From Candidatus Limnocylindrales bacterium (GTDB lineage: Bacteria > Chloroflexota > Limnocylindria > Limnocylindrales > CSP1-4), in contig JANWLH010000012.1 of NCBI GenBank assembly GCA_025450915.1, positions 1 through 32,636 on the forward strand: a DNA stretch of 32,636 nucleotides, given 5' to 3'. Made by a program: the position numbers and the translations under genes. Below are positions 2,542 to 31,004 of this stretch, one piece after another. How positions within the stretch are numbered: the stretch's first letter is position 1; the number at the start of each line of letters is the position of its first letter. The notes below the pieces were generated by a model. It was not told the DNA's origin. It ran no database searches and saw only the letters and a program-made list of their open reading frames with translations.

Positions 2542-3264
2542 TCATCCCTTATGATCGAGGGGCAGCCTTGCGCCGTTCATCGCCGCGGCCTCGTCCGAGC
2601 ACAGGAAGAGGAACGCAGCGGCGATCTCCTCGGGCGTTGTCCACGTTGCGTTCTTCAGTGTCGGAGCGGATTCCCGCTCGTGCTTCTCGTCGATCGTGCC
2701 GACCGTCACGAGGTTGGCGGTCACGCCCGTGCCGGCGACTTCGCGGGCAACCGTGCGCAGGAGGGTGTCTTCGGCGGTCTTCGCCACGGCGTAGGCGGCG
2801 GACTTCGGCACGGCCTCGAGGGCGGGGCGCGATCCGACAGCGGCGATGCGGCCCCAGCCCGCGGCGATCATCGCGGGTACCGTGGCCTGGATGATGTTGA
2901 GCGTCGTCCAGAGGTGCTGGTCGAGCATCGTCCGGAGCTCCGCGGGATCCAGGTCGACCACGGCGGTGCCGCCGGTCCAGCCGCCGACCAGATGGAGGAC
3001 GACGTCCACCCGGCCGAGGCGGTCGGCCACCGACTTCACCGCCGCGCGTGCCTCACCGTCGTCGCGCAGGTCGGCCGTGCCCGGCGCCCAGCGATCGGCA
3101 TCGAGACCCAGGTCACGGGCCACCTCGGTCAGGCGGTCAAGATGGGTCCCGACCAGCCCGAGCCGGGCACCCGCGGCCGCGAACCGGGCGACGACCACCC
3201 GGCCGAGGACACCGGTCGCGCCGGTGACCAGGACGACCCGTTCGTGGAGCATTGCCTTGTCCAT
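2542..3264 (-). CDS. Short-chain dehydrogenase/reductase
   Basis: The 240-residue product is a classical SDR: the cofactor motif TGATGVLG is near residues 15-22, a strand ending in DVVLHLVGG replaces the usual NNAG, and the catalytic Ser and YAVAK (Tyr-x3-Lys) are present around residues 145-165. Such enzymes oxidise or reduce alcohols/ketones with NAD(P)H in the cytoplasm. It converges on the MetF-like gene (45-nt gap) and lies 238 nt downstream of the catabolic cluster, so membership of that cluster is doubtful. Its GC content looks closer to the flanking chromosome than to the cluster. The substrate cannot be predicted. Confidence 0.85.
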   Translation of the reverse strand: MDKAMLHERVVLVTGATGVLGRVVVARFAAAGARLGLVGTHLDRLTEVARDLGLDADRWAPGTADLRDDGEARAAVKSVADRLGRVDVVLHLVGGWTGGTAVVDLDPAELRTMLDQHLWTTLNIIQATVPAMIAAGWGRIAAVGSRPALEAVPKSAAYAVAKTAEDTLLRTVAREVAGTGVTANLVTVGTIDEKHERESAPTLKNATWTTPEEIAAAFLFLCSDEAAAMNGARLPLDHKG

Positions 3265-3502: not shown

Positions 3503-4375
3503 TTACGGGTGATCGATGCGACAGGTGTTCGCGAGATCACCGATGCCTTCGATGGAGATGCGGATCACGTCGCCGTCGGCCAGGAATGTCGGCGGATCGC
3601 GATAGACACCGACGCCCGACGGGGTACCAGTCGCAATCACGTCTCCAGGCTCAAGCGTAAATGCCTGCGAACAGTGGGCGATGATGCGGCTGACGCTGAA
3701 TAGCATTTCGGAGGTTCGGGCTGCCTGACGCTTCTCCCCATTGACGGTGGCGGCAATCGCCAAGTCATTCGGATCGCGCAATTCGTCGAGCGTGACGAGC
3801 TGAGGGCCCATCGGGCAGAACGTGTCCAGCGACTTGCCGCGCACCCACTGTCCGTCTCCGAACTGAAGATCGCGCGCCGAAACGTCGTTGAGGCACGTGT
3901 ACCCGAGTACGTGGCTCAGTGCGTCGGCCTCGGAGATGCGCCGGGCGCGCCGACCGATGACGACGGCGAGCTCGGCCTCGTAGTCGACCTCAGCGGTCAA
4001 TACGGGGTCCCAGCGGATCGCCTCGTTGGGTCCAATCACCGAGGACGGCCATTTTGCGAAGATGAGGGGCGCAGGAGGAGCTACAGCGCCCCCCTCCGTC
4101 GCGTGGTCAGCGTAGTTGCGGCCGATCGCGATGATCTTGCCAGGGCGGGGCACAGGCGCAGCCAGTTGGAACTGCTCGAGCGGCTCGCCGGCCGCCCGGA
4201 TGCGCGCTGGGTCGGCGGCTGCCCGGAGCGCCTCGAGTGGATCGTCCCCACCGGCCAGGAGTGCCGTCAGCGTGGCCGGACCATCCGGCACCAGCCTCGC
4301 AGCGGCGATCGCGTAGCCATCGGCCACGACGCCGAGGGTCACCCCTCCGGCGGCGTGGAAGGATATCAGGCGCAT
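3503..4375 (-). CDS. Fumarylacetoacetate hydrolase (FAH) family protein
   Basis: This 290-residue protein has the FAH-family core: KIIAIGRNYADHA (residues ~80-92), the metal-binding acidic residues in VDYEAELAVVIG, NDVSARDLQ, WVRGKSLDTFCPMGP and the closing ATGTPSGVG. Family members hydrolyse or decarboxylate beta-diketo acids, isomerise hydroxymuconate-type products or open lactones, using Mg or Mn. The ATG at 4375 is preceded by GGAAGG at 7 nt. It is the last gene of the minus-strand cluster, 80 nt after an amidohydrolase gene, and probably acts on a late ring-opened intermediate. The exact reaction is not deducible from sequence. Confidence 0.88.
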   Translation of the reverse strand: MRLISFHAAGGVTLGVVADGYAIAAARLVPDGPATLTALLAGGDDPLEALRAAADPARIRAAGEPLEQFQLAAPVPRPGKIIAIGRNYADHATEGGAVAPPAPLIFAKWPSSVIGPNEAIRWDPVLTAEVDYEAELAVVIGRRARRISEADALSHVLGYTCLNDVSARDLQFGDGQWVRGKSLDTFCPMGPQLVTLDELRDPNDLAIAATVNGEKRQAARTSEMLFSVSRIIAHCSQAFTLEPGDVIATGTPSGVGVYRDPPTFLADGDVIRISIEGIGDLANTCRIDHP

Positions 4376-4455
4376 GGCTTGCCTTCCTTTGCCTCGACGG
4401 TGCTCAATACCGACCCGCCGAGGTCAGCCTTGTTCAGCGACGGCGTGAGCCGGGC

Positions 4456-5838
4456 TCAAGTCGATCCGACTGGGGTTGCCTGATGGCCTGCTCCCGGCGA
4501 CCCGGTCACGAGGCCGTCTTCGAAGACGAAGCTCCCACGCAGAATCGTGGAAACGGGGATGCCCACGACCTCCCGCCCCGCGTAGGGCGTCCAGCCGCAC
4601 TTGCTGAGCACCTCCGCATCCGAGATGGTGTGCCGGCGAGCCAGGTCGACCAGGACGATATCTGCGTCGGCGCCAACCTGGATCGCGCCCTTGCGGGGAT
4701 AGAGATCAACCGCCTTTGCCGGAGCGGTCGCCGTGATGTATGCGGCACGCTCCAGGCTGATCTTTCCTGCGTTCACATCGGTCAGGAGCAGGGACAGATA
4801 GAACTGGAGTGACGGCGTTCCCGTATGGGCCTTCCAGCCGTCGGTCCAGCCGATCTCCTTCTCTTCGCGCAGGTGTGGCGCATGGTCTGTTGCGATCATG
4901 TCCACCGTGCCGTCGATCAGGCCAGCGTAGACGGCGGCCGACCCCGCGGGGGGGACGTAGTAGGAAAGGGCATACGAGCCGAGCCGCTCGATGTTCGCCC
5001 AGTCATTGCCGAGCCACAGCGCCCACGGGTTCGCTTCGGCGGTCACCGTTCGTCCCGCCCGCTTCGCCGCCGCGATCATCTTGACGGTCCTCGTGGTCAT
5101 CGTGTGCAGCAGGTGCAGCCGCACGTCCGTCGCTTCCTGCAAGCGGAGCAAGGTCGCCACCGCCACGTCCCAAACGAGCCCGTCACCGTAGGAATAGGCC
5201 TTCGCATAGGCGAGTGCATCCCGCTCGCCGCGCTGCCAGAACTCCTGTTCAATAACGTCCATCAGCGACTGGTCATGGGGGTGGACCATGAGAGGCCGGC
5301 CGGTTTTGGCAACTTCCCTGAATGTGCTGAACAGTCGACCGTGGTCATGCACACCGAGACCGGGCATGTGCGGGTAGTCCCGCCCGGTGTCCTCGACCAT
5401 GAAGATCTTGAAGGCGAGGACTCCGCGCTGCGCGATGGCCTCGATCTCCTCCAGCTTTGTGGCGGCGGGATTGAGGTTGTAGTCGACGATGGACTTCGCG
5501 CGGTAGATGTCGAGGATCTCGTCCACCACGGCCGCGGTGTTCGGAATGGGACTGACGTTCGGCATGCCGACGGAAACGGTCACGCCGCCTGCGGCGCACT
5601 GCAGCCCGGACGACGTGATGTCTTCCTTGTGCGTGAACCCGGGCTCGCGATGGTGGGAGTGGAGGTCGATAAGTCCGGGGAGCGCGGCGAGGCCGGAGCA
5701 CTCGATGACACGATCGCCACGAGGGGCGCTCCCTGGTCCGTAGACTCCGACGATCACCTCTCCATCGATGTAGATATCGGCTGGTCGGCCACCATCCTCG
5801 AACACGGTGAAGGCATTACGTAGGGTGAGCGTCGACAC
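4456..5838 (-). CDS. Dihydroorotase-like cyclic amidohydrolase, paralogue A
   Basis: The 460-residue TIM-barrel amidohydrolase has all expected binuclear-metal ligands: H60-x-H62 in DLHSHHREPG, a probable carboxylated Lys144 in AFKIFM, His186 or His188 in MVHPHDQ, His245 in LHLLHTM and Asp318 in ATDHAPH. R64 and N94 (GMPN) match the residues that bind the substrate carboxylate in dihydroorotases; D-hydantoinases and allantoinases usually lack that Arg. The fold hydrolyses cyclic amides such as dihydroorotate, hydantoins and dihydropyrimidines. It starts with GTG (TCG ACG...), 6-7 nt after AGGAGA. It is paralogous to the two genes at 10165-11565 and 11605-12993 and sits between an F420 enzyme and the FAH-family gene. 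A biosynthetic PyrC role is unlikely because there are three copies in a catabolic context. Confidence 0.88.
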   Translation of the reverse strand: MSTLTLRNAFTVFEDGGRPADIYIDGEVIVGVYGPGSAPRGDRVIECSGLAALPGLIDLHSHHREPGFTHKEDITSSGLQCAAGGVTVSVGMPNVSPIPNTAAVVDEILDIYRAKSIVDYNLNPAATKLEEIEAIAQRGVLAFKIFMVEDTGRDYPHMPGLGVHDHGRLFSTFREVAKTGRPLMVHPHDQSLMDVIEQEFWQRGERDALAYAKAYSYGDGLVWDVAVATLLRLQEATDVRLHLLHTMTTRTVKMIAAAKRAGRTVTAEANPWALWLGNDWANIERLGSYALSYYVPPAGSAAVYAGLIDGTVDMIATDHAPHLREEKEIGWTDGWKAHTGTPSLQFYLSLLLTDVNAGKISLERAAYITATAPAKAVDLYPRKGAIQVGADADIVLVDLARRHTISDAEVLSKCGWTPYAGREVVGIPVSTILRGSFVFEDGLVTGSPGAGHQATPVGST

Positions 5839-5931
5839 GGGATTCTCCTGTCAAAGGATGCCTTGGGCCTGGCCACGAGGCGGATGAGCGCCGGCCCAGG
5901 ACACTCGAGCACGAATGACGTCCTGCGGGGG

Positions 5932-6936
5932 CTAACCCCACTTCTCTCTGAGACGGGGCAGGATCACCTCACCGTAGCGTGCGATGGCCGCCTCCTGATC
6001 GTTGCCCGGGAAGTGGAACACGAGGTGATTGAACCCATACGCAAGGTATGGGGCGATCTGCTCGATGTGCTCGTCGGGGTCGGACGAAACGAGCCAGCGC
6101 CGGTGCGCATACGGCTCGGCATCCTTGGCCAAGGCCTCCATCTCTCGCGGGTCATGGACACCAACCTTCTTCTCGCCGGGTAGCGCCAGCGCTGCCCACA
6201 CCTTGGTGTCTTCCATCGCATGCCCGAGGTCTCGATCGAAGCTGACCTTCATCTCGATCATTCGGTCCATCGCGGCGGTATCCCGGCCCGCCTTCTGAGC
6301 GCCTTCTGCGAACGAAGGCAAGAGGGTGTCCGTGTAAAGTTCTGCGCCCTTTCCCGATGTGCAGATGAGCCCATCCCCGAGCCGTCCGGCCAGGCGCGCG
6401 GCCGCCGGCCCCGACGCCGCGACGTAGATCGGGACCGGCTGGTCGGGCAGGTCGTAGATGGTCGCGTCATGGGTGTGGAAGTACTCGCCATCGAACGTGA
6501 CGAACTCCTCGCTCCACAGTTGGCGGATCAGGCCGATGGCCTCGCGGAGACGCGCGAACCGTTCAGCCTGCTCGGGCCAGTCGACCCCGACCGGCACCTC
6601 GTTCATCGACTCGCCCGTGCCCACCCCCAGGATGACCCGGCCAGGGGCCAGGCAGCCCAGGGTTGCGAACGCCTGGGCGACGATCGCCGGGTTATAGCGG
6701 AAGGACGGGGTCAAGACACTCGTGCCCAGTACGACGCGGCTCGTCGCCTGGGCGGCCGCGCCCAGCCAAACCAGCGCGTTAGGGGCATGGCCATCGGTGT
6801 GCCGCCACGGCTGGAAGTGGTCACTGGTCCAGACGGAATCGAAGCCGGATGCCTCGGCGGCGATCGCCAGGTCGAGCAGGCGCCGCGGAGGAAACTGCTC
6901 AGCAGACGCCTTATAACCGAGTCGCAGGATGGGCAC
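5932..6936 (-). CDS. fgd: F420-dependent glucose-6-phosphate dehydrogenase-like (Fgd/LLM family)
   Basis: The 334-residue product matches mycobacterial Fgd1 (336 aa, from memory) almost end to end, including LGYKASAEQF, SDHFQPW, GTSVLTPSFRYNP, GVGTGE and SGKGAELY. With the GTG at 6936 as start, His40, Trp44 and Glu109 fall on exactly the Fgd1 catalytic numbers, and the phosphate-binding set Lys198/Lys259/Arg283 corresponds to K196, K256 or K257, and R280 here. Fgd reduces cofactor F420 using glucose-6-phosphate. The ORF-track GTG at 6954 lies upstream of a strong GGAGGAG at 6947-6941, so the start at 6936 is favoured. It lies just downstream of another LLM oxidoreductase, which it could supply with F420H2. 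Close relatives acting on other alcohols cannot be excluded. Confidence 0.85.
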   Translation of the reverse strand: MPILRLGYKASAEQFPPRRLLDLAIAAEASGFDSVWTSDHFQPWRHTDGHAPNALVWLGAAAQATSRVVLGTSVLTPSFRYNPAIVAQAFATLGCLAPGRVILGVGTGESMNEVPVGVDWPEQAERFARLREAIGLIRQLWSEEFVTFDGEYFHTHDATIYDLPDQPVPIYVAASGPAAARLAGRLGDGLICTSGKGAELYTDTLLPSFAEGAQKAGRDTAAMDRMIEMKVSFDRDLGHAMEDTKVWAALALPGEKKVGVHDPREMEALAKDAEPYAHRRWLVSSDPDEHIEQIAPYLAYGFNHLVFHFPGNDQEAAIARYGEVILPRLREKWG

Positions 6937-6940
6937 CGGA

Positions 6941-6947
6941 CTCCTCC
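6941..6947 (-). promoter_or_regulatory. Ribosome binding site deciding the Fgd-like start
   Basis: GGAGGAG reads on the minus strand 4 nt before the GTG at 6936. The alternative upstream GTG at 6954 lies before this site and has no comparable site of its own. Confidence 0.7.
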
Positions 6948-7042
6948 ATTTCACGCATCGGCGCCTACGCTCACGATCGGATCTCGACGAATCAGTCGGC
7001 CGAAGCCAAGACTTGAGCAGGCCTCGCGCGCCTCGGCCGTCC

Positions 7043-8050
7043 TCAAGCCATTCGGCGCGGGACCGAGGGCGCCGTCGCTCCGACCCTCGGCAGGACCTCG
7101 CTCACGAGCGTTTCGATCTGCTCCAACCAGTCGACGAACCGGAACCGGAAGTCGAAGATGAGGAGGTCAGCGCCGATCTCCAGGTAACGATCCACCCCAC
7201 GGGCGACCTCGGCTGGCGTTCCGAAGAGCACGGAGCCATCCAGGTCCGCCATCGTCTGGAACTCCCCCGATTCGGGTTTGAGCCAGAAGCGTTGGTTGTT
7301 CGCATTCTTGATCAGGCCGGCCTGATTCAAGTTCGCCAGGGCGGCCTCCGAGGTCGAGCCGATGCTCGTGATGGGGACAGCGCCGACCTTGATCATCGCT
7401 CGACCCTGCTCCTCGCAGCGTTCGCGGATCTGGTGGACGCGTTTCTCGTACGTAGGGAAGGTGATCCGACCGGGCAGCCAGCCGTCGCAGAAGTCGACTG
7501 CCAGCCGCGTCGACGCTGGCGTGCCACCGCCCCACCAGATGGGCGGCGGCGAGGTAAATCCAGGCTTGAGGTCAACGTCTGCGAAGTCGTAGGTCGGGCT
7601 GTGGTGCTCGATGGTGCCACCGGCCCACAGGCCGCGCATGATCTCGAGTTGCTCGATCATCAGAGCCGGGCGATCAGCATCGCCCATCCCAATCACGTCG
7701 AACTCGTGGTCAAACGTGCCGGACCCGATACCGAGATCCAAGCGCCGGCGGGTAATCCAGCCCAGGGATGCCACGCTATAGGCGAGGTTGATCGGGTGTC
7801 GGAACGGGATGACGGTGGCCGTGCCGAGTCCGATGCTCGTGGTCACCCCGGCCAGGAATGCCAGGGTCACAAAGGGCTCGATGAACGTTCGGTCGGTGCC
7901 CTCCATCCCGTGCGGATGGAAGACCAGATGGTCCCGGACCCACAGAGAATCCAGCCCGAGCCGTTCCGCGAGCTGCGCACCCTCGATCAGCAGGTCCTGA
8001 CTCGCCTCGGTCCCAAAGTGTGGGAGAAGGAGGCCAAAGCGCGTCGCCAT
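7043..8050 (-). CDS. LLM-class flavin/F420-dependent oxidoreductase
   Basis: The 335-residue protein belongs to the bacterial luciferase-like superfamily: MATRFGLLLPHFG at the N-terminus, LGLDSLWVRDHL, IGLGTATV...RHPINLA, a DLGIGSGT loop and IWWGGGTPAS in the middle. Members are FMN-dependent monooxygenases (for example RutA, which opens the uracil ring) or F420-dependent oxidoreductases; the sequence alone does not separate these. The ORF-track start at 8200 adds a poor N-terminal tail; the ATG at 8050 is 10 nt after GAGGA and begins the canonical first strand. It is probably the first gene of a sub-operon LLM-Fgd-amidohydrolase-FAH. Given the adjacent Fgd-like gene, F420H2 use is a reasonable inference. 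Confidence 0.85.
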   Translation of the reverse strand: MATRFGLLLPHFGTEASQDLLIEGAQLAERLGLDSLWVRDHLVFHPHGMEGTDRTFIEPFVTLAFLAGVTTSIGLGTATVIPFRHPINLAYSVASLGWITRRRLDLGIGSGTFDHEFDVIGMGDADRPALMIEQLEIMRGLWAGGTIEHHSPTYDFADVDLKPGFTSPPPIWWGGGTPASTRLAVDFCDGWLPGRITFPTYEKRVHQIRERCEEQGRAMIKVGAVPITSIGSTSEAALANLNQAGLIKNANNQRFWLKPESGEFQTMADLDGSVLFGTPAEVARGVDRYLEIGADLLIFDFRFRFVDWLEQIETLVSEVLPRVGATAPSVPRRMA

Positions 8051-8131
8051 AATCGTTCGCTCCTCGGTAACGCTCTTCCCTGGGCTTGGGACCCCGACGC
8101 CCGGACTCATGCCGTGGAACCAGGCTGGTCT

Positions 8132-8152
8132 CAATACTGCCGAGATTGTATC
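8132..8152 (+). promoter_or_regulatory. Shared 21-bp element, copy 1 (upstream of LLM gene)
   Basis: The plus-strand sequence CAATACTGCCGAGATTGTATC matches 18 of 21 positions of an element at 16889-16909 without gaps. Read towards the LLM gene it contains an extended -10-like TGATACAAT and a CAAT-N9-ATTG dyad just downstream, 81 nt before the ATG at 8050. No good -35 is visible (best is about 3/6 matches), as expected for an extended -10 or activator-dependent promoter. The nearby GntR/FCD protein is the natural candidate to bind it, which is inference. Confidence 0.5.
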
Positions 8153-8343
8153 ATCAAATAGGTAATCTGGTACACAGAATGTAGACGATTCGTGCCGCAC
8201 GCTCGCGTTTCAGAAGAATCCGGGAGGCGTCGAATTGGACGGCCATGGACAGCCCCCGATCGCAACCGGAGGTGGTCGAGGTCTTGCCTTCGTTCGTCAG
8301 CGCTGGGCTGGACCTCTGGCGTTCGGGGCCCTGCCGCGCTCGA

Positions 8344-9177
8344 CTAGTTCTCCGAGGCCCGTGCCACCGGCCGCCGCCGCCTACGTTGGTGCGCGATGCG
8401 ATTGCCGGCGGGGAGGCCTGCCGCGATTCGTGCCGCAGGCGGCTCCGACGCGTCGTTCCGCTGGCGCAGCTCAGCCTCGCGAATGAACCGGCGCAGGAGG
8501 GAAGCGACCTTGCGATAGTGGGTCGTGAGCAGCTTCTCCGCTGTGTGAACGTCCCCTTGCATCACGGCCTCGAAGAAGGCCCGATGGTGGGCCTCCGACG
8601 CTGGTACCGCATACCATCTCAACGACCGAGCGAGCTCGCGTCGCATGGTCACGATGAGGCCGAGAAGCCGAGGCCTTGCAGGAACCGAGTACAGACGAAA
8701 GTAGAACTCCTCTCGTTTGCTCCGTCGCTCCTCGCGGTTCTCCACGGTCTCCATCGCTTCGAAAAGCTCGGTGAGGGCGACCAGGTCGGCGTCCGTCAAG
8801 AGCGGCACCGCGAGTTGCAACGCGTGGGACTCGAGGACGATCCGTAAGTCGTAGATCTCGTCGATCTCGTCGGCTCCGATCGGCTTGACGGAAAACCCGC
8901 GGTTGGGTTCGGATTCGAGCAGCCCTTCGTGCTCGAGCAGCCGCAGCGCCTCCCTGATCGGGATTCGGCTCGTGTTGAACACGAGGGCCAGCTCCTCCTG
9001 GCGGAGCCGCGTTCCAGGCATCAGGATCCCGTCGAGGATCCCTTTCCGCAGGGCGGCGATGACGAGCGCCTGGATCGTGACGTGCATCGGCCGAAGCGTC
9101 TCGATGACCTGCGCAAGGCTCGCCTCAGGTCGGGTCGCGGACTCCTCGTCGCTGGTCAGCTGCGTCGACCGAACCAT
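8344..9177 (-). CDS. GntR-family transcriptional regulator (FCD subfamily)
   Basis: The 277-residue protein has an N-terminal GntR winged helix (TIQALVIAALRKGILDG...LRQEELALVFNTSRIPIREALRLLEHEGLL) and a C-terminal all-helical FCD effector domain (DEIDEIYDLRIVLESHAL...HHRAFFEAVMQGD...TTHYRKV). FCD domains normally bind a metal plus a small carboxylic acid. Here the Asp/His of the usual D-x-x-F-H motif are replaced (REEFYFRL), while the two later histidines remain. I chose the ATG at 9177 (11 nt after GGGAGG); the longer ORF to 9369 has a low-complexity Arg/Gly-rich tail. It ends 293 nt before the LLM start, separated by the shared element, and probably controls the cluster. Confidence 0.85.
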   Translation of the reverse strand: MVRSTQLTSDEESATRPEASLAQVIETLRPMHVTIQALVIAALRKGILDGILMPGTRLRQEELALVFNTSRIPIREALRLLEHEGLLESEPNRGFSVKPIGADEIDEIYDLRIVLESHALQLAVPLLTDADLVALTELFEAMETVENREERRSKREEFYFRLYSVPARPRLLGLIVTMRRELARSLRWYAVPASEAHHRAFFEAVMQGDVHTAEKLLTTHYRKVASLLRRFIREAELRQRNDASEPPAARIAAGLPAGNRIAHQRRRRRPVARASEN

Positions 9178-9393
9178 CTGGTTGGATACCTCCCCCGGAG
9201 ACCGGTTGGCTGCTCCGCGGGGACGGTCGCCGGCCCCTGTCGGGAAGAAGTCGCGGCCACCCGCCGCCAAACCTGCCGCCGACCGTGTTTCCCCGCGGTC
9301 GGTCGAGCTCCGCGTGCGGAGGCCCGCCTGCCGAGTCCGAAGGATACGCCCGACACTCGTGGCATTCAATGATCGGAAACCCGCTCAGTGGGC

Positions 9394-10143
9394 TCAATTC
9401 GAGCCGGATGCCCCGACGAGCAAGCCTCGGTCCGCGACGAGCAGGGAGCCGTTGAGGGCCCGATTCTGGATCGCGACAAGGACAAGCTCGGCGACCGATT
9501 GCAGCATCCCGTCCGTATCCGCAGCAGCGTCCGCCTCGAACGCTGCCGATGTCGGGCTCGGCCAGCGAGTCGGCATGGCACCAGGAGCGATCGCGACAAC
9601 ACGGACGTCGGGTTCGAACGCGACGGCCAGACATTTGGTCAAGTGCACGAGCCCGGCTTTCGCCACCGAGTAGGCGATGGATGAGCCTCTTGGCGCCAGC
9701 CCGGCGGTTGATGAGATGTTGACGATCACCCCGCCCGCAGTCCGCAGCCATGGCGCCGCGGCGCGCGCACACAGAAACGGCGCCCGGAGGTCGGTTTCGA
9801 GAATTCGATCCCAGGTGGCTGCGGTCAGACCGGCAAGGTCATGGAATGCGATGACCTCGGTCTCCGCTGCGTTGTTCACGAGCACGTCGACGCGTCCGAA
9901 CCGCTCCGTAACCTCGCCCAGCAGGCGGTCGGGCGCCTCGGGCAGGACGAGGTCCGTCGCGAAGGCGGCCACGCGCACGCCAAGGCTCTCCAGCTTCGCC
10001 ACGGTGTTGCGGGCGTCGGCCTCCGAGCGGCGGTAGGTCAGAGCGATCGCGAAGCCAGCCTCACCGAGCCTGAGCGCGATCGCGCGCCCGAGGCCGGTAG
10101 CTCCCCCTGTGATGAGGGCGAGGGGCGCGGCGGTCGTCGGCAC
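9394..10143 (-). CDS. Short-chain dehydrogenase/reductase in the amidohydrolase cluster
   Basis: The 249-residue product shows the full classical SDR set: TGGATGLG for NAD(P) binding at residues ~12-19, DVLVNNAA near 87-94, the catalytic Ser in NISSTAGL and YSVAK with the Tyr/Lys pair, followed by APGAMPT. The start is a GTG with GGAGG 11 nt upstream. It follows paralogue B by 21 nt and precedes the GntR gene, so it is in the operon. It likely oxidises or reduces a hydroxyl/keto intermediate of the pathway. The substrate is not predictable. Confidence 0.88.
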   Translation of the reverse strand: MPTTAAPLALITGGATGLGRAIALRLGEAGFAIALTYRRSEADARNTVAKLESLGVRVAAFATDLVLPEAPDRLLGEVTERFGRVDVLVNNAAETEVIAFHDLAGLTAATWDRILETDLRAPFLCARAAAPWLRTAGGVIVNISSTAGLAPRGSSIAYSVAKAGLVHLTKCLAVAFEPDVRVVAIAPGAMPTRWPSPTSAAFEADAAADTDGMLQSVAELVLVAIQNRALNGSLLVADRGLLVGASGSN

Positions 10144-10164
10144 GGCCGTGGGAACCTCCGTGAC

Positions 10165-11565
10165 CTAGGGCTGAGGCGCGACGCGAAGCGGTCGCACAAA
10201 CCGCCCACTACCTGGGTCGGCCAGGACTTCGCCATCCCGCGCGATGACGGCCCCTCGCCTGACGGTCAGCACAGGTGCCCCGCGGAGCCGGCGCCCTTCG
10301 AGGGGCGTCCAGCCGCATTTGTAGTAGCTATCGGCGGCCCTGACGACCCAGTCCCGGTCCATGTCGAGGACCACAAGGTCCGCGTCGGCGCCGGGCGCGA
10401 TGACCCCCTTGCGTGGATAGAGGCCGGTGAGGCGGGCCGGGTTGGCCGCGCACATCTGGATGACGCGCTCGAGCGTCAGGCGCTTGGCGTTCACGGCGTC
10501 CAGCAGGAGCGCCAGGTAATGCTGGATCATTGGACTCCCGCCCGGGGCGGCGTACATGTCTGTCCAACCGACCTCTTTCTCCTCCTTGGTGTGCGGAGAG
10601 TGGTCCGTGGCGATGACGTCGGCGGATCCATCGACCAGCGCTTCCCAGGCGGCCGCCGCATGCGCCTCCGGGACCCACATGCCAAGGCAGTAGGGCCCGA
10701 GCTGCTCAATCGCGTCCCACGTGTTGGTAACGAATAGTGAGAATGGGTTGAGCTCGATCGTGACAGCCCGGCCAGCCTCCTTCGCCGCCCGGACCATCTC
10801 GAAGCCGTGGATCGTTGACATGTGGAGGAGATGGAGCCGTACGCCGGTGGCTCGCTGCATCTCGAGCATCGTCGCGATGCCCGAATCGAGGATGATCCCG
10901 TCTCCCGAACGCCACGCCCGCGCGTAGGAGCGGAAGTCTCGGCCCCATTCCTGCCACGCCCGCTGCGTATACAGCTCGTAGAGGGCTTGATCGTGCGGGT
11001 GGATGTACAGCGTGAGGCCCGTTGCCGCTACCTCCTCGCAGATCCGCAGCAAGGTCGCGTGATCGGAGACTGCTGTCCCAGGCATGTGGGGGTAGTCGCG
11101 GCCAATGTCGGTCATCATGAATACCTTGAACGAAGTGGCGCCCGCTTCGGCAAGACCCCTGATCTCCTCAGGAATTGTCCCGGACGCGTTATGCCCGAAG
11201 TCCACCAGCGACTTGGCGGCCGCGTTCTCGACGTGGGCGCGGAAGCGTTCGACGGTGTTCGTCGGCGGGGTCACATTCGGCATGTCGAATACGGTCGTCA
11301 CACCACCGGCCGCCGCGGCACGCGTGCCTGTCTCGAAGTCTTCCTTGTGGGTAAAGCCTGGATCGCGGAGGTGGACGTGGGTGTCCACGAGGCCCGGGAT
11401 CACGTGCCGATCCCCCACGTCGATCACGTCGTGCGAGGCCGGAGCAGGACCGGCCGCCACGAGCGCCGCGATCCGCCCGTCGCGGACCGCCACGTAGCCA
11501 TCGAACCAGCCACCGCTGCTGTAGATGCGCCGGGAACGGACAAGGAGGTCATAGGGTCCGGACAT
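10165..11565 (-). CDS. Dihydroorotase-like cyclic amidohydrolase, paralogue B
   Basis: This 466-residue protein is a paralogue of the genes at 4456-5838 and 11605-12993. Metal ligands are visible as H63-x-H65 (DTHVHLRDPG), the Lys of SFKVFM, HPHDQ, LHLLHMST and ATDHSPH; R67 and the Asn of DMPNV give the dihydroorotase-type carboxylate-binding pair. A family-specific GRDYPHMPG follows the lysine, and GWTDMYAA follows the Asp loop. It starts at an ATG about 9 nt after AAGGA and lies 39 nt downstream of paralogue C. Tandem placement suggests duplication and possibly hydrolysis of different stereoisomers or successive ring substrates, which is inference. Confidence 0.88.
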   Translation of the reverse strand: MSGPYDLLVRSRRIYSSGGWFDGYVAVRDGRIAALVAAGPAPASHDVIDVGDRHVIPGLVDTHVHLRDPGFTHKEDFETGTRAAAAGGVTTVFDMPNVTPPTNTVERFRAHVENAAAKSLVDFGHNASGTIPEEIRGLAEAGATSFKVFMMTDIGRDYPHMPGTAVSDHATLLRICEEVAATGLTLYIHPHDQALYELYTQRAWQEWGRDFRSYARAWRSGDGIILDSGIATMLEMQRATGVRLHLLHMSTIHGFEMVRAAKEAGRAVTIELNPFSLFVTNTWDAIEQLGPYCLGMWVPEAHAAAAWEALVDGSADVIATDHSPHTKEEKEVGWTDMYAAPGGSPMIQHYLALLLDAVNAKRLTLERVIQMCAANPARLTGLYPRKGVIAPGADADLVVLDMDRDWVVRAADSYYKCGWTPLEGRRLRGAPVLTVRRGAVIARDGEVLADPGSGRFVRPLRVAPQP

Positions 11566-11604
11566 GTCTCGGGTTCCTTGTTGCTCGCTAATCCGGAAGC
11601 TCCC

Positions 11605-12993
11605 TCATGCGGCGCCCGGGACTGCCTGAAGGCCCCCGCCCGGCTGGCCGACGACATCGCCGTTGCGCATGACGAACCCACCACGAACCAGCGTGTGGAT
11701 CGGAATACCGTGGACCTCCCGGCCGTCGAACGGGGTCCAGCCACACTTGCTCAGAACGTCAGCCTCCCGGATCGTCGTACGAGCAGCCATGTCGACCGCC
11801 ACGATGTCGGCATCGGCCCCGACTTGGATGGCGCCCTTGCGCGGGTAGAGGCCGAAGCGCCGGGCTGGGGCAGTCGCCATCAGCTCGGCCAGCCGCTCCA
11901 GCGAGAGCCGCCCTTCGTTGACGGCCGTCAGGAACAGGCTGAGCGCATGCTGGATCTGCGGCACGCCACCGGCCGCCTTCCACATGTCAGTCCAGCCGAT
12001 CTCTTTCTCTTGGCGTGTGTGTGGAGCATGATCGGTGCCGATCACGTCGATCGTCCCGTCGTTGATGGCTTCCCAGAGGGGCTCGGTGGCGTCTGGTCCC
12101 GTCCAAGTCGAAAGGCTGTACGGCCCGAGGCGCTCGATATTCTCCCATTCGTTGCACAGGAACACTGCCACCGGGTTCAACTCTGCCGTCACGTCGAGGC
12201 CACGGACCTTGGCCGCACGCACAATCGCCGCCATCCGGGGCGTCTTGACGTGGAGGATGTGCATCCGCACGTTCGTTGCCTCCTGCAGGCGGACGAGGAA
12301 GCTGGATGCGGTATCCCAGACCATTCCGCCGTACGAGGCGAACGCCTGCGCGTAGGCGCGGTGGTCGCGCTCGCCACGAGCCCAGAACCGGTGTTCGATC
12401 ACATTCATCAGATCCTGGTCATGTGGGTGAACCATGAGCGGCCGCCCGGTTGCCGCGACCGCTTCGGCTATCTCGAGGAGCTGTCCGTGATCGTGAACGC
12501 CGATCCCCGGAATGTGCGGGTAATCACGCCCGGTGTCGGCGATCATGTAGATCTTGAAACCGGCTGCACCGGCGGCGGCCAGCCCCTCGATCTCGCTCAG
12601 CACCGTCGGCGATGGATTGTGGTTGAAGTCGACAATCGACTTGGCTTGATAAAGCTCGAGGACCTCCTGATACCGCTCCACCGTGTTCGTCGGCGGCTGG
12701 ACGTTCGGCATCCCAAACACCGTCGTGTAGCCCCCAGCGGCCGCGGCCCTGGTCCCGGTGGTGATGTCCTCCTTGTCGGTGTAGCCCGGTTCGCGCAGGT
12801 GGGTATGCGTGTCGATTCCGCCAGGAAGGAGCGTAAGGCCGCTAACCTCGACCGTCTCGGCAGCATCGACGGGCGTGCCCGGGAGCAGCAGGGCGTCGAT
12901 TCGGCCCGCAGAGACCGCGATGTCCCAGCTCTTGGTGCCGGTCGAGGTGACGACCCTGCCCCCCCGCAAAAGTAGGTCCGCCTGAGACGTCAT
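11605..12993 (-). CDS. Dihydroorotase-like cyclic amidohydrolase, paralogue C
   Basis: The 462-residue product has the same architecture as paralogues A and B: H63-x-H65-x-R67 in DTHTHLREPG, GMPNV, Lys in GFKIYM, GRDYPHIPG, MVHPHDQ, MHILHVKT and GTDHAPH, and a C-terminal stretch GLYPRKGAIQVGADADIV nearly identical to that of A. The ATG is preceded by GGGAG at 8 nt. It is 19 nt downstream of the alpha/beta hydrolase gene, so the two are co-transcribed. By sequence it appears closer to A than to B, suggesting that the tandem pair B/C is not simply the latest duplication; an alignment and tree would be needed to settle this. Confidence 0.88.
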   Translation of the reverse strand: MTSQADLLLRGGRVVTSTGTKSWDIAVSAGRIDALLLPGTPVDAAETVEVSGLTLLPGGIDTHTHLREPGYTDKEDITTGTRAAAAGGYTTVFGMPNVQPPTNTVERYQEVLELYQAKSIVDFNHNPSPTVLSEIEGLAAAGAAGFKIYMIADTGRDYPHIPGIGVHDHGQLLEIAEAVAATGRPLMVHPHDQDLMNVIEHRFWARGERDHRAYAQAFASYGGMVWDTASSFLVRLQEATNVRMHILHVKTPRMAAIVRAAKVRGLDVTAELNPVAVFLCNEWENIERLGPYSLSTWTGPDATEPLWEAINDGTIDVIGTDHAPHTRQEKEIGWTDMWKAAGGVPQIQHALSLFLTAVNEGRLSLERLAELMATAPARRFGLYPRKGAIQVGADADIVAVDMAARTTIREADVLSKCGWTPFDGREVHGIPIHTLVRGGFVMRNGDVVGQPGGGLQAVPGAA

Positions 12994-13012: not shown

Positions 13013-13978
13013 TCAAGGAGCCGAGGGCAGCGCGTCTCGATTGAGGTATTCGACCGTCTCCTCTCGGTCCATCGAGCGTGATGAGACCGGCGAGAACCGC
13101 AGGTACTGGTCGTACCACGCCACGATCTGGGTCAGGAGCACGTCGCGATTCTCGACGTACGACCGGTAGTGGCTCGTGCCGCTTTGTCGGATCAGCTTCT
13201 TGGGAGCGCCGGCGCGCTCGTACAGGGCGACCGCGTGGTCCTCTGGGGTGACCACGTCGCCGACAACGCTGGTCATCAACAACGCTCGTGGCGCGATGCG
13301 GTGCACGTGGTCAATGGGTCGATAGCGCATGATGTAATCGGCGCTGCGCAGGTAGAACTGTTCCGCAATCCGGTTGTCGACGTCCTTCTTCGGGCTCAGG
13401 GCTGCTCGCTCGGGAGTGGCTACCATCAGGTCTTCACGGGGACCGACCATCTCGCCGGAACCGTCGGAGACCCAGGTCCTGCGATCGGCGGCGACGCGCT
13501 CGCGGTACGCCACCCATTCTGATTCCCGGCGCATTCGATGCAGCCAGTCCGCACCATCCGCGACAACCGACTGCGCCGCCACACAGCGAATGCGGGTGTC
13601 CACGGCTGCGGCCAACACCGCGTTCCCACCGCCGGTGCCGCCCATCCCGTACGCGCCGATGCGATTCGCGTCGATCTCTGGGCACGTCTCGAGCCATGTG
13701 ACGGCGCTGAGGATGTCCTCGAGCTGCCACTCCGGCCGCACCCATCCCGGCTCGCCCTCGCTGGCGCCGAACCCGCGGTAGTCGAAAGCCAGCACACCGT
13801 ATCCGGCCGCCGTGAACCCTTCGTGCCATGGCACGTACGACTGGGCATCGGCGAGGCCAAGCCAGCCTGGGCCGTGGACGAGGGCGGCGATCGGACCCGA
13901 GGCGATCTCGTCGGGCAGACGCAATAGCCCCTGCAGCCGGACGCCGTCGCTGAAGAAGGAGACTACTTTTGTGCGCAT
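13013..13978 (-). CDS. Alpha/beta hydrolase with non-canonical nucleophile elbow
   Basis: The 321-residue protein has an alpha/beta-hydrolase fold: an oxyanion-hole stretch HGPGW (residues 35-39), AFDYRGFGASEG, a nucleophile-elbow region at 107-119, a likely acid at D241 or D247 (SVVGDVVTPEDH) and a C-terminal His270 (SGTSHYRSY). The elbow reads RIGAYGMGGTGGGN, so the expected GxSxG serine is absent; the DNA there is unambiguous. Either Thr115 acts as nucleophile or the protein is not a serine hydrolase. Overall it resembles dienelactone hydrolase / S15-type hydrolases. It lies 61 nt after the permease gene and just before paralogue C. The Shine-Dalgarno before the ATG is weak. Confidence 0.8.
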   Translation of the reverse strand: MRTKVVSFFSDGVRLQGLLRLPDEIASGPIAALVHGPGWLGLADAQSYVPWHEGFTAAGYGVLAFDYRGFGASEGEPGWVRPEWQLEDILSAVTWLETCPEIDANRIGAYGMGGTGGGNAVLAAAVDTRIRCVAAQSVVADGADWLHRMRRESEWVAYRERVAADRRTWVSDGSGEMVGPREDLMVATPERAALSPKKDVDNRIAEQFYLRSADYIMRYRPIDHVHRIAPRALLMTSVVGDVVTPEDHAVALYERAGAPKKLIRQSGTSHYRSYVENRDVLLTQIVAWYDQYLRFSPVSSRSMDREETVEYLNRDALPSAP

Positions 13979-14039: not shown

Positions 14040-14810
14040 CTACTTCTGGGAGCCGGCCGTCTCCTTGATCCAAGCGAACCAGCGCCGCTCGATGAGGCCC
14101 AGGAGTCCAACGAACACGACCCCGAAGATGGAGGTGCAGAAGATGACCGCCATCAGCTTCGAGGTCTGGAACGAGTCGCCGAAGACGGCGACCATGCCCC
14201 CAAGGCCCGCCAGGGCCATGTCCATTTCGCCGATGATCATGCCCACGATCCCCTTTGCGATCCCGTTCCGTATGCCGGCCAGGATGTATGGAACCGCGGA
14301 CGGCAGATTGACCCAGCGCAGCAGCTGGACTTCCGAGAGACCGAACGAGGTTCCGACCTCGACGAGTCCTCGATTCGCATTCTTGATCCCGGCGACGGTG
14401 TTGATCAGGATCGGCCACAGGCTCAGCAGGAACACGACGATAACCCGCGCCGGAAACTCGATACCGACCCAGATGATGAGCAGAGGAATGAACGCCACCA
14501 GCGGTGTCGCATTCATGAACGTCACATACGGGTCGAAAACGACCTCGAATCGGTGATAGCGGCCCATCAGAACCCCAAGCCCGATCCCGACGATCACAGC
14601 TATCGTGAAGCCCAGGATCAGTTCGGAGAAGCTGTCGACCAACGCGCTAACGAGGGTTCCGTCCGAGACGAGTGCGACGAAGTCGGCAAGGACCGCGATC
14701 GGCGTTGGCAACAGGATCGGGTTCATCGGTGCGGCGTAGAGCTGCCAGGCCACGGCGAAGATAATCAGAGAGGCGACGCGCAGCCATCGATCGTTGAGTC
14801 GTCGTCCCAA
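14040..14810 (-). CDS. ABC transporter permease, NitT/TauT (SsuC/TauC) type
   Basis: The product (256 residues from the TTG) is an integral membrane protein with about six hydrophobic segments and the conserved EAA loop (SFGLSEVQLLRWVNLPSAVPYILAGIRNGIAKGIVGMIIGEM). It pairs with the upstream ATPase and binding protein as an importer of the sulfonate/taurine/nitrate/pyrimidine-precursor class. The start is uncertain: the only usable start codon is a TTG with a poor ribosome site, while the frame is open a further ~90 nt upstream (DISAPDIARSPARQEPGV...) back to the ATPase stop. A longer N-terminus with a rare start codon is possible. The C-terminus ends AGSQK before TAG. Confidence 0.85.
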   Translation of the reverse strand: MGRRLNDRWLRVASLIIFAVAWQLYAAPMNPILLPTPIAVLADFVALVSDGTLVSALVDSFSELILGFTIAVIVGIGLGVLMGRYHRFEVVFDPYVTFMNATPLVAFIPLLIIWVGIEFPARVIVVFLLSLWPILINTVAGIKNANRGLVEVGTSFGLSEVQLLRWVNLPSAVPYILAGIRNGIAKGIVGMIIGEMDMALAGLGGMVAVFGDSFQTSKLMAVIFCTSIFGVVFVGLLGLIERRWFAWIKETAGSQK

Positions 14811-14899: not shown

Positions 14900-15691
14900 T
14901 TATATCAAGACCCGCTTTCGAAGCTCGAGCCGTTCGATGATGGCTCGCCGGAGTCGAATTGCCTCCGGTTGCGCCGGAACGTCAATCTCCCACCGCGGAT
15001 GGGGGAGATTGACATCGAGGACCTCAACAATCCGGCCCGGATCCAGATCGAACACGGCAATCCTGTCGGACAGGAAGATTGCCTCGTCGACGTCGTGCGT
15101 CACGAACACGACCGACATGCGCATTCTGTGCCAGATCTTGGAGACCTCGATCTGAAGCGTTTCGCGCGTCATGTTGTCAAGATGCCCGAACGGCTCGTCC
15201 ATGAGGAGGACGCGCGGATTGATGGCAAGGGCGCGGGCGACCCCGACGCGCTGCTGCATCCCGCCCGACAGGGTGTAAGGCGGATGGGAGGCGACGCCAT
15301 GGAGCCCGACGAGTTCGAGAACCTCCATGGCGCGGCGTCGGCGTTCGACCGGCGCTTGTCCCCTACCCACGAGCCCAATCTCCACGTTCTCGACCACCGA
15401 CTTCCAGGGCAGCAGATTGATGTCCTGGAAGACATATGCGATTTCCCTCGATACGCCGACGAGCTCCCGCCCATCGAACAGGATCCTTCCCGATGATGCC
15501 GGGAGAAGGCCGTCGAGGATCTTGAGAAGCGTCGTCTTGCCACAACCGCTCGGCCCGACGAAGCTGATGAATTCGCCTTCACGGATCGAGAGGTCGATGG
15601 ACTCGAGCGCCTGGACGCCGCGGTGCCCTGAACGGCCCCCATAGACCTTCGAAATGCCGCGGATATCGAGGACGGTCGAAGCCTCGGTCAT
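14900..15691 (-). CDS. ABC transporter ATP-binding protein, NitT/TauT (SsuB/TauB) type
   Basis: This 263-residue ATPase has every expected motif: Walker A GPSGCGKTT, Q-loop QDINLLPW, signature LSGGMQQR, Walker B LLMDEPFGHLD and the H-loop VTHD. The LPW after the Q-loop is typical of the TauB/SsuB/NrtD family. The ATG at 15691 overlaps the binding-protein stop by one base (TAATG), which argues against the longer ORF-track start at 15724. It energises import together with the adjacent permease and lipoprotein. Confidence 0.92.
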   Translation of the reverse strand: MTEASTVLDIRGISKVYGGRSGHRGVQALESIDLSIREGEFISFVGPSGCGKTTLLKILDGLLPASSGRILFDGRELVGVSREIAYVFQDINLLPWKSVVENVEIGLVGRGQAPVERRRRAMEVLELVGLHGVASHPPYTLSGGMQQRVGVARALAINPRVLLMDEPFGHLDNMTRETLQIEVSKIWHRMRMSVVFVTHDVDEAIFLSDRIAVFDLDPGRIVEVLDVNLPHPRWEIDVPAQPEAIRLRRAIIERLELRKRVLI

Positions 15692-16800
15692 TACGGGAGC
15701 AGCGCCTTGACAGCCTGATCCCAATACTGGGTGGTCGACATCGCCGACAGCGGCGGTGCTGACGCGTTGAGGGCCCCGGTCGTATTGGCCGCCAGTTGCA
15801 GGTTGTAGGTGATCGTGTCAGTCGAGAAGGCGGAAGCGGCCGCAGGCCAAACGTTGGCCGCGTGCAAGATCGTCCAAGCGTTCTGGACGAACGGCGTCGG
15901 GTCCGCACCCTTGGTGTAGGCCTGCTCGTCGGCGACCCACGTCGTCTCGTCATTCTGGAACTCCTGCGCCGCGACGATCCAGGCCTCGTCAATCGCGAGC
16001 GCCACGTCGGCATTCCCCTGGAGATACGTCGGCGATGCGTCCATGAAGCCATCGGCGAGCTGCGGGATGTCGTCTGCGACGGTCGCCAAGAGGTTGAAGC
16101 CCTGACCCTGTAGCGTCAACCAGCCGTCGAAATGGACGAAGGTCGCGTCGATCTTGCCGGCAATCAGCTCGGTGGCTCGGGTCGAAGCGCCGCCCGAGAT
16201 CTGGAGCGTCACGGACTTCGGATCGATCGAGTAGTGAGCCTCTTCGGCCGCCAGCATCAGGGCCTCCAAACCCTTCGTATTGGACACGCCGAAGACGTGG
16301 CCCGGCAGGCCCTGGACGCTCGTCACGTTCTTTCCGCCGGCCATGAAGTACTCGACACGGGGCTGGGCGGGGCCGAAGGTCATGAGGCCCGCGTTGACGA
16401 CCGAGTTCATCGGGTCATTGGCGATATCTGCGCCACCGGACAGCACCAGTCGGTCGGCCTCTGGGGCGCCGGTCACGTTCGTGATCTTGACCGTGGCACC
16501 CCAGGATCGGAGGGTCTTGGCGATGATGTAGAACTGCGTGTCGGTAAGCTGCGGATCGGCGCCGATCACGATGCGGATCGTCTTGCCGGTCAGGCTCGGC
16601 GGGGTGAATGTCGCGACGGCCGACGGTGAGCCGCTGGGTGCCACGCTTGCCCCCGAGGCGGGCGCCTGGCTCGCCGCTGTCGTCGGTCCGATGGTCGGTG
16701 CCGTGGTGCCCGCATTGCTGCCGCACGCCGCCACGATCATCGCGGCGACAACAGCCAGGACTGACACTCGGGGACGCGTCCAATGGCCAGAGCTTGCCAT
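15691..16800 (-). CDS. ABC transporter substrate-binding lipoprotein (NrtA/SsuA/TauA-like)
   Basis: The 369-residue protein begins with a lipoprotein signal (basic n-region, hydrophobic VSVLAVVAAMIVA, then AAC at the lipobox) followed by a Thr/Ser/Ala/Pro-rich linker to about residue 65. The mature domain starts KTIRIVIGADPQLTDTQFYIIAK and contains GVSNTKGLEALMLAAE, typical of the type 2 periplasmic-binding fold of NitT/TauT importers. It would capture the solute for the downstream ATPase and permease. The ATG has AGAGGG 8 nt upstream. It is the first gene of the minus-strand cluster, and the shared 21-bp element lies 89 nt upstream. The ligand is unknown. Confidence 0.88.
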   Translation of the reverse strand: MASSGHWTRPRVSVLAVVAAMIVAACGSNAGTTAPTIGPTTAASQAPASGASVAPSGSPSAVATFTPPSLTGKTIRIVIGADPQLTDTQFYIIAKTLRSWGATVKITNVTGAPEADRLVLSGGADIANDPMNSVVNAGLMTFGPAQPRVEYFMAGGKNVTSVQGLPGHVFGVSNTKGLEALMLAAEEAHYSIDPKSVTLQISGGASTRATELIAGKIDATFVHFDGWLTLQGQGFNLLATVADDIPQLADGFMDASPTYLQGNADVALAIDEAWIVAAQEFQNDETTWVADEQAYTKGADPTPFVQNAWTILHAANVWPAAASAFSTDTITYNLQLAANTTGALNASAPPLSAMSTTQYWDQAVKALLP

Positions 16801-25352: not shown

Positions 25353-26692
25353 TCGCGCGATGCCTCGACGGCCTTGCGCGGGCCGGCGAGCGGGGCCTTC
25401 AGCCGGAAGTCGTCCTTCACGATCTCACCGTCGACGATGACGGTCCTGACGTTCGAGACATCCGCGGCGCAGACCACGGCAGCGACCGGGTCAATGATCG
25501 GGGCAACGTTGACGGCTCCGCCATCGATGATCACCACGTCGGCCTTCTTGCCGGGGGTGAGCGAACCCGTCCGGTCGGCGATCCCGGCCACATGAGCGCC
25601 ACCCAGCGTGGCCCAGTGGAGGACCTGCCGGGCGGTGATCAGGCCGGGCGAGGCCTGCAGGCCGTCGAGGTCGGCATCCCAGGCCTCCTGGTGCTTGCGA
25701 CCACGCTCCGAGCCGAAGATCGCGTGCATCTGGGTGAACTGGTCGGAGGATGCGGTCGTCGCGACGTCCGACGAGAGCCCGATCGGGATGTCGTAGGCCG
25801 TTGCCGTCACCGCGGGCGCCCAGCCATGACCCATCTGGATCTCGATCTGGGGAGCGAACGACACGTTGCCGCCCGACTCGCGGACAAGGCCCCACTCCTC
25901 GTCGGTGAAGTGCGAGCCGTGGACGTAGGTGGTGCCCGGGTACAGCAGGTTCATGTCGCGGAGGGCCTTGACCTGCATCTTCGTGTAGCCGAACCGGTCC
26001 ATCGCCACGTGGACGGTGATCAGGATGCCCAGCTCCTTGGCCAGCTCCCAGTCGTGCCGGACCACCTCCGGCTTGCAGAACCCGGGACCGCGCGTCGCCA
26101 GCGACATCGTGATCCGGCCCTTGTCGGAGTTGAAGTACTGGGCCTTGATCCGGCGTGCCTCGGCGCCGTCGCTCGTCAGGATGCTGCCCGAATAGTCGGG
26201 TCCGAACCACCAGTCCTGGAGCGACGTGTTCGGGAACCCGTACGCAAACACCGACCGGATGCCTGTTACGGCGAGCCCGCGGATCGCCTCGTCCGCGTGG
26301 GCCGGGGTGTTCATGATGTGCGACCAGTCGACGAGGGTCGTGATGCCGGCGTTGAGGCATTCAAGCGATCCCCACTGGTTCGCTGCGAAGACGTCGTCGG
26401 GCCGGTAGTGGGGCGCGAACTTGTCGAGGATGTTGCCGAAGTAGGTGATCAGGGCAAAGTCGGGCGCGCAGGTCCGGATCGAGGTCTCCCAGGTGTGACG
26501 GTGCGAGTCGATGAAGCCGGGGATGACGATGTCGCCCTTGGCGTCGATCACCTTCGCGCCATCGGCACTGAGATTCGGTCCGATCGCCTTGATCCGGTCG
26601 CTTTCGATCAGGATGTCGGCGTTGGGGAGCTCGCCGAGTGTTGGGTCCTGGGTGAGAACGATCCCACCGCGGATGAGCAGTCGATCGACCAT
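25298..26692 (-). CDS. Amidohydrolase-family protein (cytosine/atrazine/guanine deaminase-like)
   Basis: The 464-residue metal-dependent hydrolase resembles the COG0402 group (deaminases and chlorohydrolases): HxH metal ligands in IDSHRHTWE (residues ~62-66), later His in ITVHVAMD and VHGSHFTDEE, and the catalytic Asp in LSSDVATT, with flanking beta-sandwich segments at both ends. These enzymes remove amino, methylthio or chloro groups from N-heterocycles. The ATG has GAGGAG at 6 nt. It is the last gene of the M24-E1-HIBADH run, 95 nt after its neighbour, and converges into the GH57 gene. The substrate is unknown and it is not closely related to the three cyclic amidohydrolases of the other cluster. 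Confidence 0.87.
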   Translation of the reverse strand: MVDRLLIRGGIVLTQDPTLGELPNADILIESDRIKAIGPNLSADGAKVIDAKGDIVIPGFIDSHRHTWETSIRTCAPDFALITYFGNILDKFAPHYRPDDVFAANQWGSLECLNAGITTLVDWSHIMNTPAHADEAIRGLAVTGIRSVFAYGFPNTSLQDWWFGPDYSGSILTSDGAEARRIKAQYFNSDKGRITMSLATRGPGFCKPEVVRHDWELAKELGILITVHVAMDRFGYTKMQVKALRDMNLLYPGTTYVHGSHFTDEEWGLVRESGGNVSFAPQIEIQMGHGWAPAVTATAYDIPIGLSSDVATTASSDQFTQMHAIFGSERGRKHQEAWDADLDGLQASPGLITARQVLHWATLGGAHVAGIADRTGSLTPGKKADVVIIDGGAVNVAPIIDPVAAVVCAADVSNVRTVIVDGEIVKDDFRLKAPLAGPRKAVEASRDYLVEKFGEPEPGWLPRA

Positions 26693-26787
26693 GCCTGTCT
26701 CCTCGTTGCCCGGTTGCTGGGGTCGGGGATCCCCTGCGTCGGCGGGGGATCGACGATTGATGCGCCGGATACCGACCTCGAACTAGC

Positions 26788-29668: not shown

Positions 29669-29671
29669 CGG

Positions 29672-30910: not shown

Positions 30911-30965
30911 CCTGCATCCTCGCGTTGGTTGGCGCGGCGGCGGGGTCGCCTGTTCAACGACACTC

Positions 30966-30971
30966 TACAAT
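30966..30971 (+). promoter_or_regulatory. Candidate -10 box for the XRE-cupin gene
   Basis: TACAAT lies 33 nt before the GTG start in the 94-nt divergent interval. The same hexamer appears in both copies of the shared element elsewhere in the window. No clear -35 is visible 16-18 nt upstream. A TTCAACGACACTC stretch just before it could be an operator, but no symmetric partner is obvious. Confidence 0.3.
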
Positions 30972-31004
30972 CGCCCGAACGGGGTTGCATCTTCGGGAGG
31001 TGAT

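Follow-up and report, generated by a model that had tools for sequence, protein, structure and literature searches.

The window, by which we mean the whole stretch of 32,636 nucleotides analysed, contains 13 consecutive minus-strand genes, the first encoding a substrate-binding protein (from 16800) and the last a dehydrogenase (to 2542) (Table 1). In this direction, an NMT1/THI5-like binding protein, an ABC ATPase and an ABC permease are followed by a UilS-like hydrolase, amidohydrolases C and B, a short-chain dehydrogenase (SDR), a GntR-type regulator, a luciferase-like (LLM) oxidoreductase, an F420-dependent glucose-6-phosphate dehydrogenase, amidohydrolase A, a fumarylacetoacetate-hydrolase (FAA) family protein and another SDR. 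The gaps separating the UilS gene, C, B and the adjoining SDR gene measure about 20–40 bases, which suggests a predicted co-transcription of these genes. No molybdenum hydroxylase was found in the window, and the genome, which is 70% complete, holds only distant homologues of this enzyme (best match 206 bits).

Table 1. Coordinates of the genes of the cluster in the window.
Feature	Position	Strand	Remarks
Short-chain dehydrogenase 1	2542..3264	minus	
Fumarylacetoacetate-hydrolase (FAA) family protein	3503..4375	minus	PF01557; likely late-step hydrolase
Amidohydrolase A (subclade A)	4456..5838	minus	460 aa, GTG start; binuclear-metal cyclic amidohydrolase with dihydroorotase-like carboxylate triad
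F420-dependent glucose-6-phosphate dehydrogenase	5932..6954	minus	TIGR03554, 448 bits (cut-off 420)
LLM-class oxidoreductase	7043..8047	minus	Nearest to TIGR03619 F420 group, 155 bits, just under cut-off (166.9); conserved clade neighbour
GntR/FadR-type regulator	8344..9213	minus	From sequence and homologues; start codon uncertain
Short-chain dehydrogenase 2	9394..10143	minus	
Amidohydrolase B (subclade B)	10165..11565	minus	466 aa
Amidohydrolase C (subclade C)	11605..12993	minus	462 aa
UilS-like alpha/beta-hydrolase	13013..13978	minus	NF047920, 123 bits, under cut-off (400); conserved clade neighbour
ABC permease	14040..14810	minus	Assigned by reading the translation and from homologues
ABC ATPase	14900..15724	minus	Assigned by reading the translation and from homologues
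Substrate-binding lipoprotein, NMT1/THI5-like	15691..16800	minus	PF09084

The original prediction of three complete amidohydrolase paralogues was confirmed, all three being read from the minus strand. Within the genome, B matches C (502 bits, 50% identity) and A (432 bits, 45% identity) over the whole length, a kinship that, judged from these alignments, is far beyond chance. Among the long stretches said to be shared by the three proteins, HPHDQ and LYPRKG are indeed common to A, B and C, and the remaining ones come with small variants: A and B have GRDYPHMPG unchanged, where C has GRDYPHIPG, EKEIGWTD occurs in A and C and becomes EKEVGWTD in B, and the lysine motif is FKIFM in A, FKVFM in B and FKIYM in C.

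Other genes lie outside the cluster. On the plus strand, positions 60–2496 hold an MttB-like methyltransferase without an in-frame stop, then a methylenetetrahydrofolate-reductase-like ORF; both were read from the translation, and the pair possibly serves C1 demethylation. A second minus-strand group (25298–30910) includes a PRK08204-type amidohydrolase (512 bits, cut-off 391), a 3-hydroxyisobutyrate-dehydrogenase-like ORF, E1 alpha/beta-like ORFs and an M24 peptidase-family protein, and at 30852–32623 (plus strand) an HTH-cupin regulator precedes a double-cupin protein.

Family assignment and active site

All three proteins match PF01979, and their HHKHHD ligands together with a TIM-barrel fold match place them in the cyclic amidohydrolase family. 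Among the matches listed, none of the many NCBIfam cyclic amidohydrolase models is reached above its cut-off. The three proteins score 264, 264 and 234.5 bits against TIGR00857 (pyrC_multi, cut-off 279), 217–286 bits against the allantoinase model TIGR03178 (cut-off 358), 160–230 bits against the ErtD hydantoin-5-propionate amidohydrolase models NF058538/NF058539 (cut-offs 600/650) and 214–246 bits against the D-hydantoinase/dihydropyrimidinase model TIGR02033 (cut-off 393), which two dihydropyrimidinase-type proteins of the same genome (C80 and C91) do pass. The closest solved structure by sequence for each of the three is the L-hydantoinase 1gkr. An AlphaFold2 model of B, computed with 64 relatives (mean pLDDT of 96.4, pTM of 0.94), is that of a complete cyclic amidohydrolase, and a Foldseek search with this model returned 1gkr as the top match (TM-score of 0.92, 33% identity), then allantoinases and hydantoinases. 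Plasmid records contain only relatives below 60% identity, labelled dihydroorotase or allantoinase.

We compared the active sites in an alignment of 122 sequences, 89 of which belong to the clade delineated below. As originally predicted, the metal ligands (HxH/K/H/H/D; residues 63, 65, 147, 189, 248 and 321 in B numbering) are intact in A, B and C, and they are kept in 88 of the 89 clade members. The same proportion retains R67, N97 and H325, placed by alignment at the carboxylate-binding Arg, Asn and His of dihydroorotases. This triad was also found in the dihydroorotases compared, and is incomplete in the L-hydantoinase, allantoinase and D-hydantoinase references, 1gkr lacking the Arg/Asn pair. 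Because the triad is so widely kept in the clade and not complete in these references, an acid-bearing cyclic amide, as the original prediction had it, is a reasonable candidate substrate. The complete triad also occurs in L098 and L102, outgroup proteins from related genomes, and so does not by itself define the clade.

The claim of a “hybrid” dihydroorotase/hydantoinase signature could not be upheld, since Arg/Asn/His combined with a bridging lysine is the standard arrangement of type II/III dihydroorotases such as those of yeast and human CAD. The bridging lysine of human CAD is K1556. The yeast enzyme has Arg18, Asn43 and His262 with a carbamylated bridging Lys98, and E. coli dihydroorotase has equivalent residues (PMC8659124); in human CAD, the ligand is bound by R1475, N1505, H1690 and others (PMC9856072).

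The clade also has features of its own. The position of the second active-site Arg of CAD (R1661) is occupied by Val or Thr in A, B and C, and an Arg lies near it in only 7 of the 89 members, in a stretch where the alignment is uncertain by about one residue; acid binding may therefore differ. An insertion in the lysine loop (Y158-P159-H160, alignment uncertain by about one residue) is private to the clade and present in 88/89 members, and HPHDQ or near variants stand where dihydroorotase has HxE. Neither the insertion nor HPHDQ occurs in the dihydroorotases compared, among which only the type I references, the local PyrC included, lack the bridging lysine.

Phylogeny and conserved neighbourhood of the clade

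The 89 sequences are monophyletic (SH-aLRT of 100) in a quick tree in which some reference branches are long. Outside the clade lie a Bacillus anthracis dihydroorotase, local PyrC proteins, two allantoinases, a D-hydantoinase, the L-hydantoinase 1gkr and the genome's two dihydropyrimidinase-type proteins. The original prediction would have been refuted by the three proteins falling into a characterised clade of known substrate; in this tree they fall into none of those tested, and the databases and literature searched yielded no characterised clade member and no named substrate. The clade extends over Actinomycetota, Chloroflexota, Acidobacteriota, Pseudomonadota and others, with relatives in the cultured genera Jiangella, Actinomadura, Nocardioides, Mycolicibacterium and Hyphomicrobium. 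Many relatives are metagenome bins, of which taxonomy and linkage may be imperfect. A Chloroflexota locus (L086) carries two divergent basal-clade copies in opposite orientation (3737–5113, minus strand; 9992–11368, plus strand) with ABC transporter genes.

A, B and C belong to three separate subclades, A and B being nearest to other Chloroflexota and C to an Acidimicrobiia contig (L020). Within about 10 kb, this contig holds three clade members, one of B type (55%), one of C type (71%) and one that belongs to the actinobacterial sister group of A; UilS separates the B- and C-type genes, and genes for LLM, an SDR and a GntR-type regulator are also present. Two genomes from another genus of the window's family (G008 and G034) have A-related, B-type and C-type copies. 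In a Chloroflexota sample, 15 of 350 genomes were positive, one of them (G303) with a protein closer to an outgroup, and C-type copies occur only alongside A- or A-related and B-type copies, the numbers being small. Because B- and C-type copies recur with A-type or A-related ones in another Chloroflexota genus and on the Acidimicrobiia contig, the phylogeny indicates that A, B and C are old, co-retained paralogues. Their distinct subclades and joint recurrence lend indirect support to the step- or stereoisomer-specific specialisation initially suggested.

Neighbourhoods were counted in 80 loci from other genomes or species. Of these, 41 have a UilS-like gene, 49 have an LLM gene and about 28 include genes for molybdenum-hydroxylase subunits. 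Among 83 amidohydrolase copies, UilS lies directly upstream of 34 and LLM directly downstream of 33, and homologues of the GntR/FadR-type regulator adjoin clade genes in other genomes. As a control in related genomes, with equal flanks of 1.5 kb, UilS was found beside 9/9 clade members (L089–L097) and 0/20 other amidohydrolases (L098–L117), these loci not all being independent. In Acidobacteriota (L031, L033 and L037), the amidohydrolase gene sits between those of molybdenum-hydroxylase subunits that score as xanthine-dehydrogenase-type, in the order UilS, CoxG, XdhS, XdhL, amidohydrolase, LLM, XdhM, M20. Many contigs labelled Deltaproteobacteria present a different context with ABC importers, hence substrates may vary. 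On another contig (L008; 8028–9413, plus strand), a dihydropyrimidinase-type amidohydrolase (386 bits, cut-off 393) lies between a B-type copy and molybdenum-hydroxylase genes.

The UilS-like hydrolase of the window and its homologues from 41 loci have a Gly-Gly-Thr-Gly-Gly nucleophile elbow, with what appears to be Thr at the usual Ser position in 40/42, and keep Asp241 and His270 in 42/42. Such a protein may represent an atypical hydrolase, lyase or decarboxylase.

The F420-dependent glucose-6-phosphate dehydrogenase is a likely source of reduced F420. The F420 biosynthesis gene cofD was found over cut-off in the window genome; a search of this assembly, which is 70% complete, did not recover cofH. 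Only 4 of 31 related genomes (G000, G004, G008 and G013) encode the dehydrogenase over cut-off, three of which carry clade amidohydrolases; in G008, about 5 kb separate it from the A-type copy.

Proposed function and alternative readings

We favour, with somewhat better than even confidence, the interpretation that A, B and C, paralogues of ancient divergence within an uncharacterised clade, would hydrolyse ring amide or imide bonds in the catabolism of an N-heterocyclic carboxylic acid, acting on the acid itself or on intermediates that are successive or isomeric. From these comparisons we infer the acid-bearing substrate, the ring-opening chemistry, the order of steps and the use of different substrates by A, B and C. 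In such a pathway, the ABC importer would take up the acid, a molybdenum hydroxylase would, in many relatives, first turn the ring into a lactam, the LLM flavin/F420 oxidoreductase would reduce or oxygenate the ring while the glucose-6-phosphate dehydrogenase renews F420H2, the amidohydrolase would open the ring, and the alpha/beta hydrolase, dehydrogenases and FAA hydrolase would complete the chain. More tentatively, and with appreciable doubt on our part, the clade, the Thr-elbow hydrolase, LLM and, in many genomes, molybdenum hydroxylase might be central to a hitherto undescribed pathway acting on some widespread N-heterocyclic acid, with F420H2-dependent ring reduction before hydrolytic opening and with A, B and C acting on different intermediates. 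No paper on this combined gene content was found in the literature.

Several observations could be accommodated by known activities. Hydantoinases or imidases acting on 5-substituted hydantoins, among them acids like carboxymethylhydantoin and hydantoin-5-propionate, would account for 1gkr being the nearest structure by sequence and fold, for the EKExGWxD motif common to both, for the matches to hydantoin-5-propionate hydrolase models and for the ArgE/DapE-type M20 and isochorismatase-like hydrolases found near clade genes in some loci. We nevertheless regard this assignment as rather unlikely given the missing Arg/Asn pair of 1gkr, the ErtD scores far under the cut-offs and the fact that no N-carbamoylase was recognised in the window cluster. 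A role of the three as dihydroorotases, with dihydroorotate or N-carbamoylaspartate as substrate in pyrimidine synthesis or orotate breakdown, seems improbable too, in spite of a triad and HxHxREPG/THKED and MPN motifs close to those of human CAD and although no PyrC over cut-off was found in the window genome (70% complete). Genomes of the same genus have a canonical PyrC over cut-off as a separate gene, so A, B and C cannot be taken simply for the enzyme of pyrimidine biosynthesis; their TIGR00857 scores, the Val/Thr at the R1661 position, the clade's lysine-loop insertion and HPHDQ, and a catabolic neighbourhood also speak against this reading.

The presence of three copies in one cluster might suggest recent duplicates, redundant or decaying, which we find scarcely credible with identities of only 45–50%, catalytic residues all kept and a tree that gives each copy closer relatives in other genomes and phyla. 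It is also very unlikely that some members catalyse oxygenolytic rather than hydrolytic ring opening, as reported for the amidohydrolase-family KpiC. The analogous content of the kpi cluster (flavin monooxygenase, alpha/beta hydrolase, amidohydrolase, FAA hydrolase and FadR-type regulator) is compatible with this idea, but KpiC is described as closest to enamidase and not clustered with dihydroorotases (PMC7356986), and the hydrolytic ligands of the binuclear centre are all kept in our proteins.

Specific substrates were also considered. The ring geometry of isonicotinate/citrazinate breakdown would suit a dihydroorotase-like site; our literature search found no gene-level paper on this route, and a search on ergothioneine (ErtD) gave nothing useful. 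Riboflavin/lumichrome catabolism came into consideration for its use of hydrolases and of an enzyme of the xanthine-oxidase type. We dismissed it, as neither the P450 nor the Rieske dioxygenase that it requires was seen in the window; the 80-kDa size of LumH, which opens the pyrimidine ring, is also against it (PMC12746152). Nicotinate degradation via an enamidase-like step, considered on chemistry alone, was set aside; enamidase itself groups elsewhere (PMC7356986).

Labels such as “dihydroorotase family” and “allantoinase” on relatives would hide a distinct and widespread clade with its own conserved neighbourhood. If the proposed pathway is real, it would constitute an unrecognised route of nitrogen-heterocycle turnover in soil and water, which the cultured relatives make testable.

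Comparison with known systems

In layout, the cluster resembles the kpi cluster of Arthrobacter sp. IN13 for 4-hydroxypyridine breakdown, which adds a flavin-dependent oxidoreductase and FadR/GntR regulators to the hydrolases named above; KpiC opens its ring oxidatively, the part of that report consulted describes no F420 enzyme or molybdenum hydroxylase, and the likeness is one of organisation, not orthology (PMC7356986). The NCBIfam families AllB (allantoinase) and ErtD belong to the same cyclic amidohydrolase family and give HMM matches over nearly the whole length, but all scores are far under the curated cut-offs and the AllB references lack a complete triad. The L-hydantoinase 1gkr, from Arthrobacter aurescens, is similar in fold and sequence and has both EKExGWxD and xYPxKG in common with the clade, outside of which it falls, without R67/N97 and without the loop insertion. 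Finally, type II/III dihydroorotases (E. coli and yeast PyrC, human CAD) share the Arg/Asn/His carboxylate site and the bridging carbamylated lysine, and CAD shares the HxHxREPG...MPN...DHxPH pattern. The clade differs from CAD in lacking the second Arg, and from dihydroorotases in having a longer GRxYPH loop in place of the catalytic Thr loop, HPHDQ after the metal-binding His and a catabolic neighbourhood.
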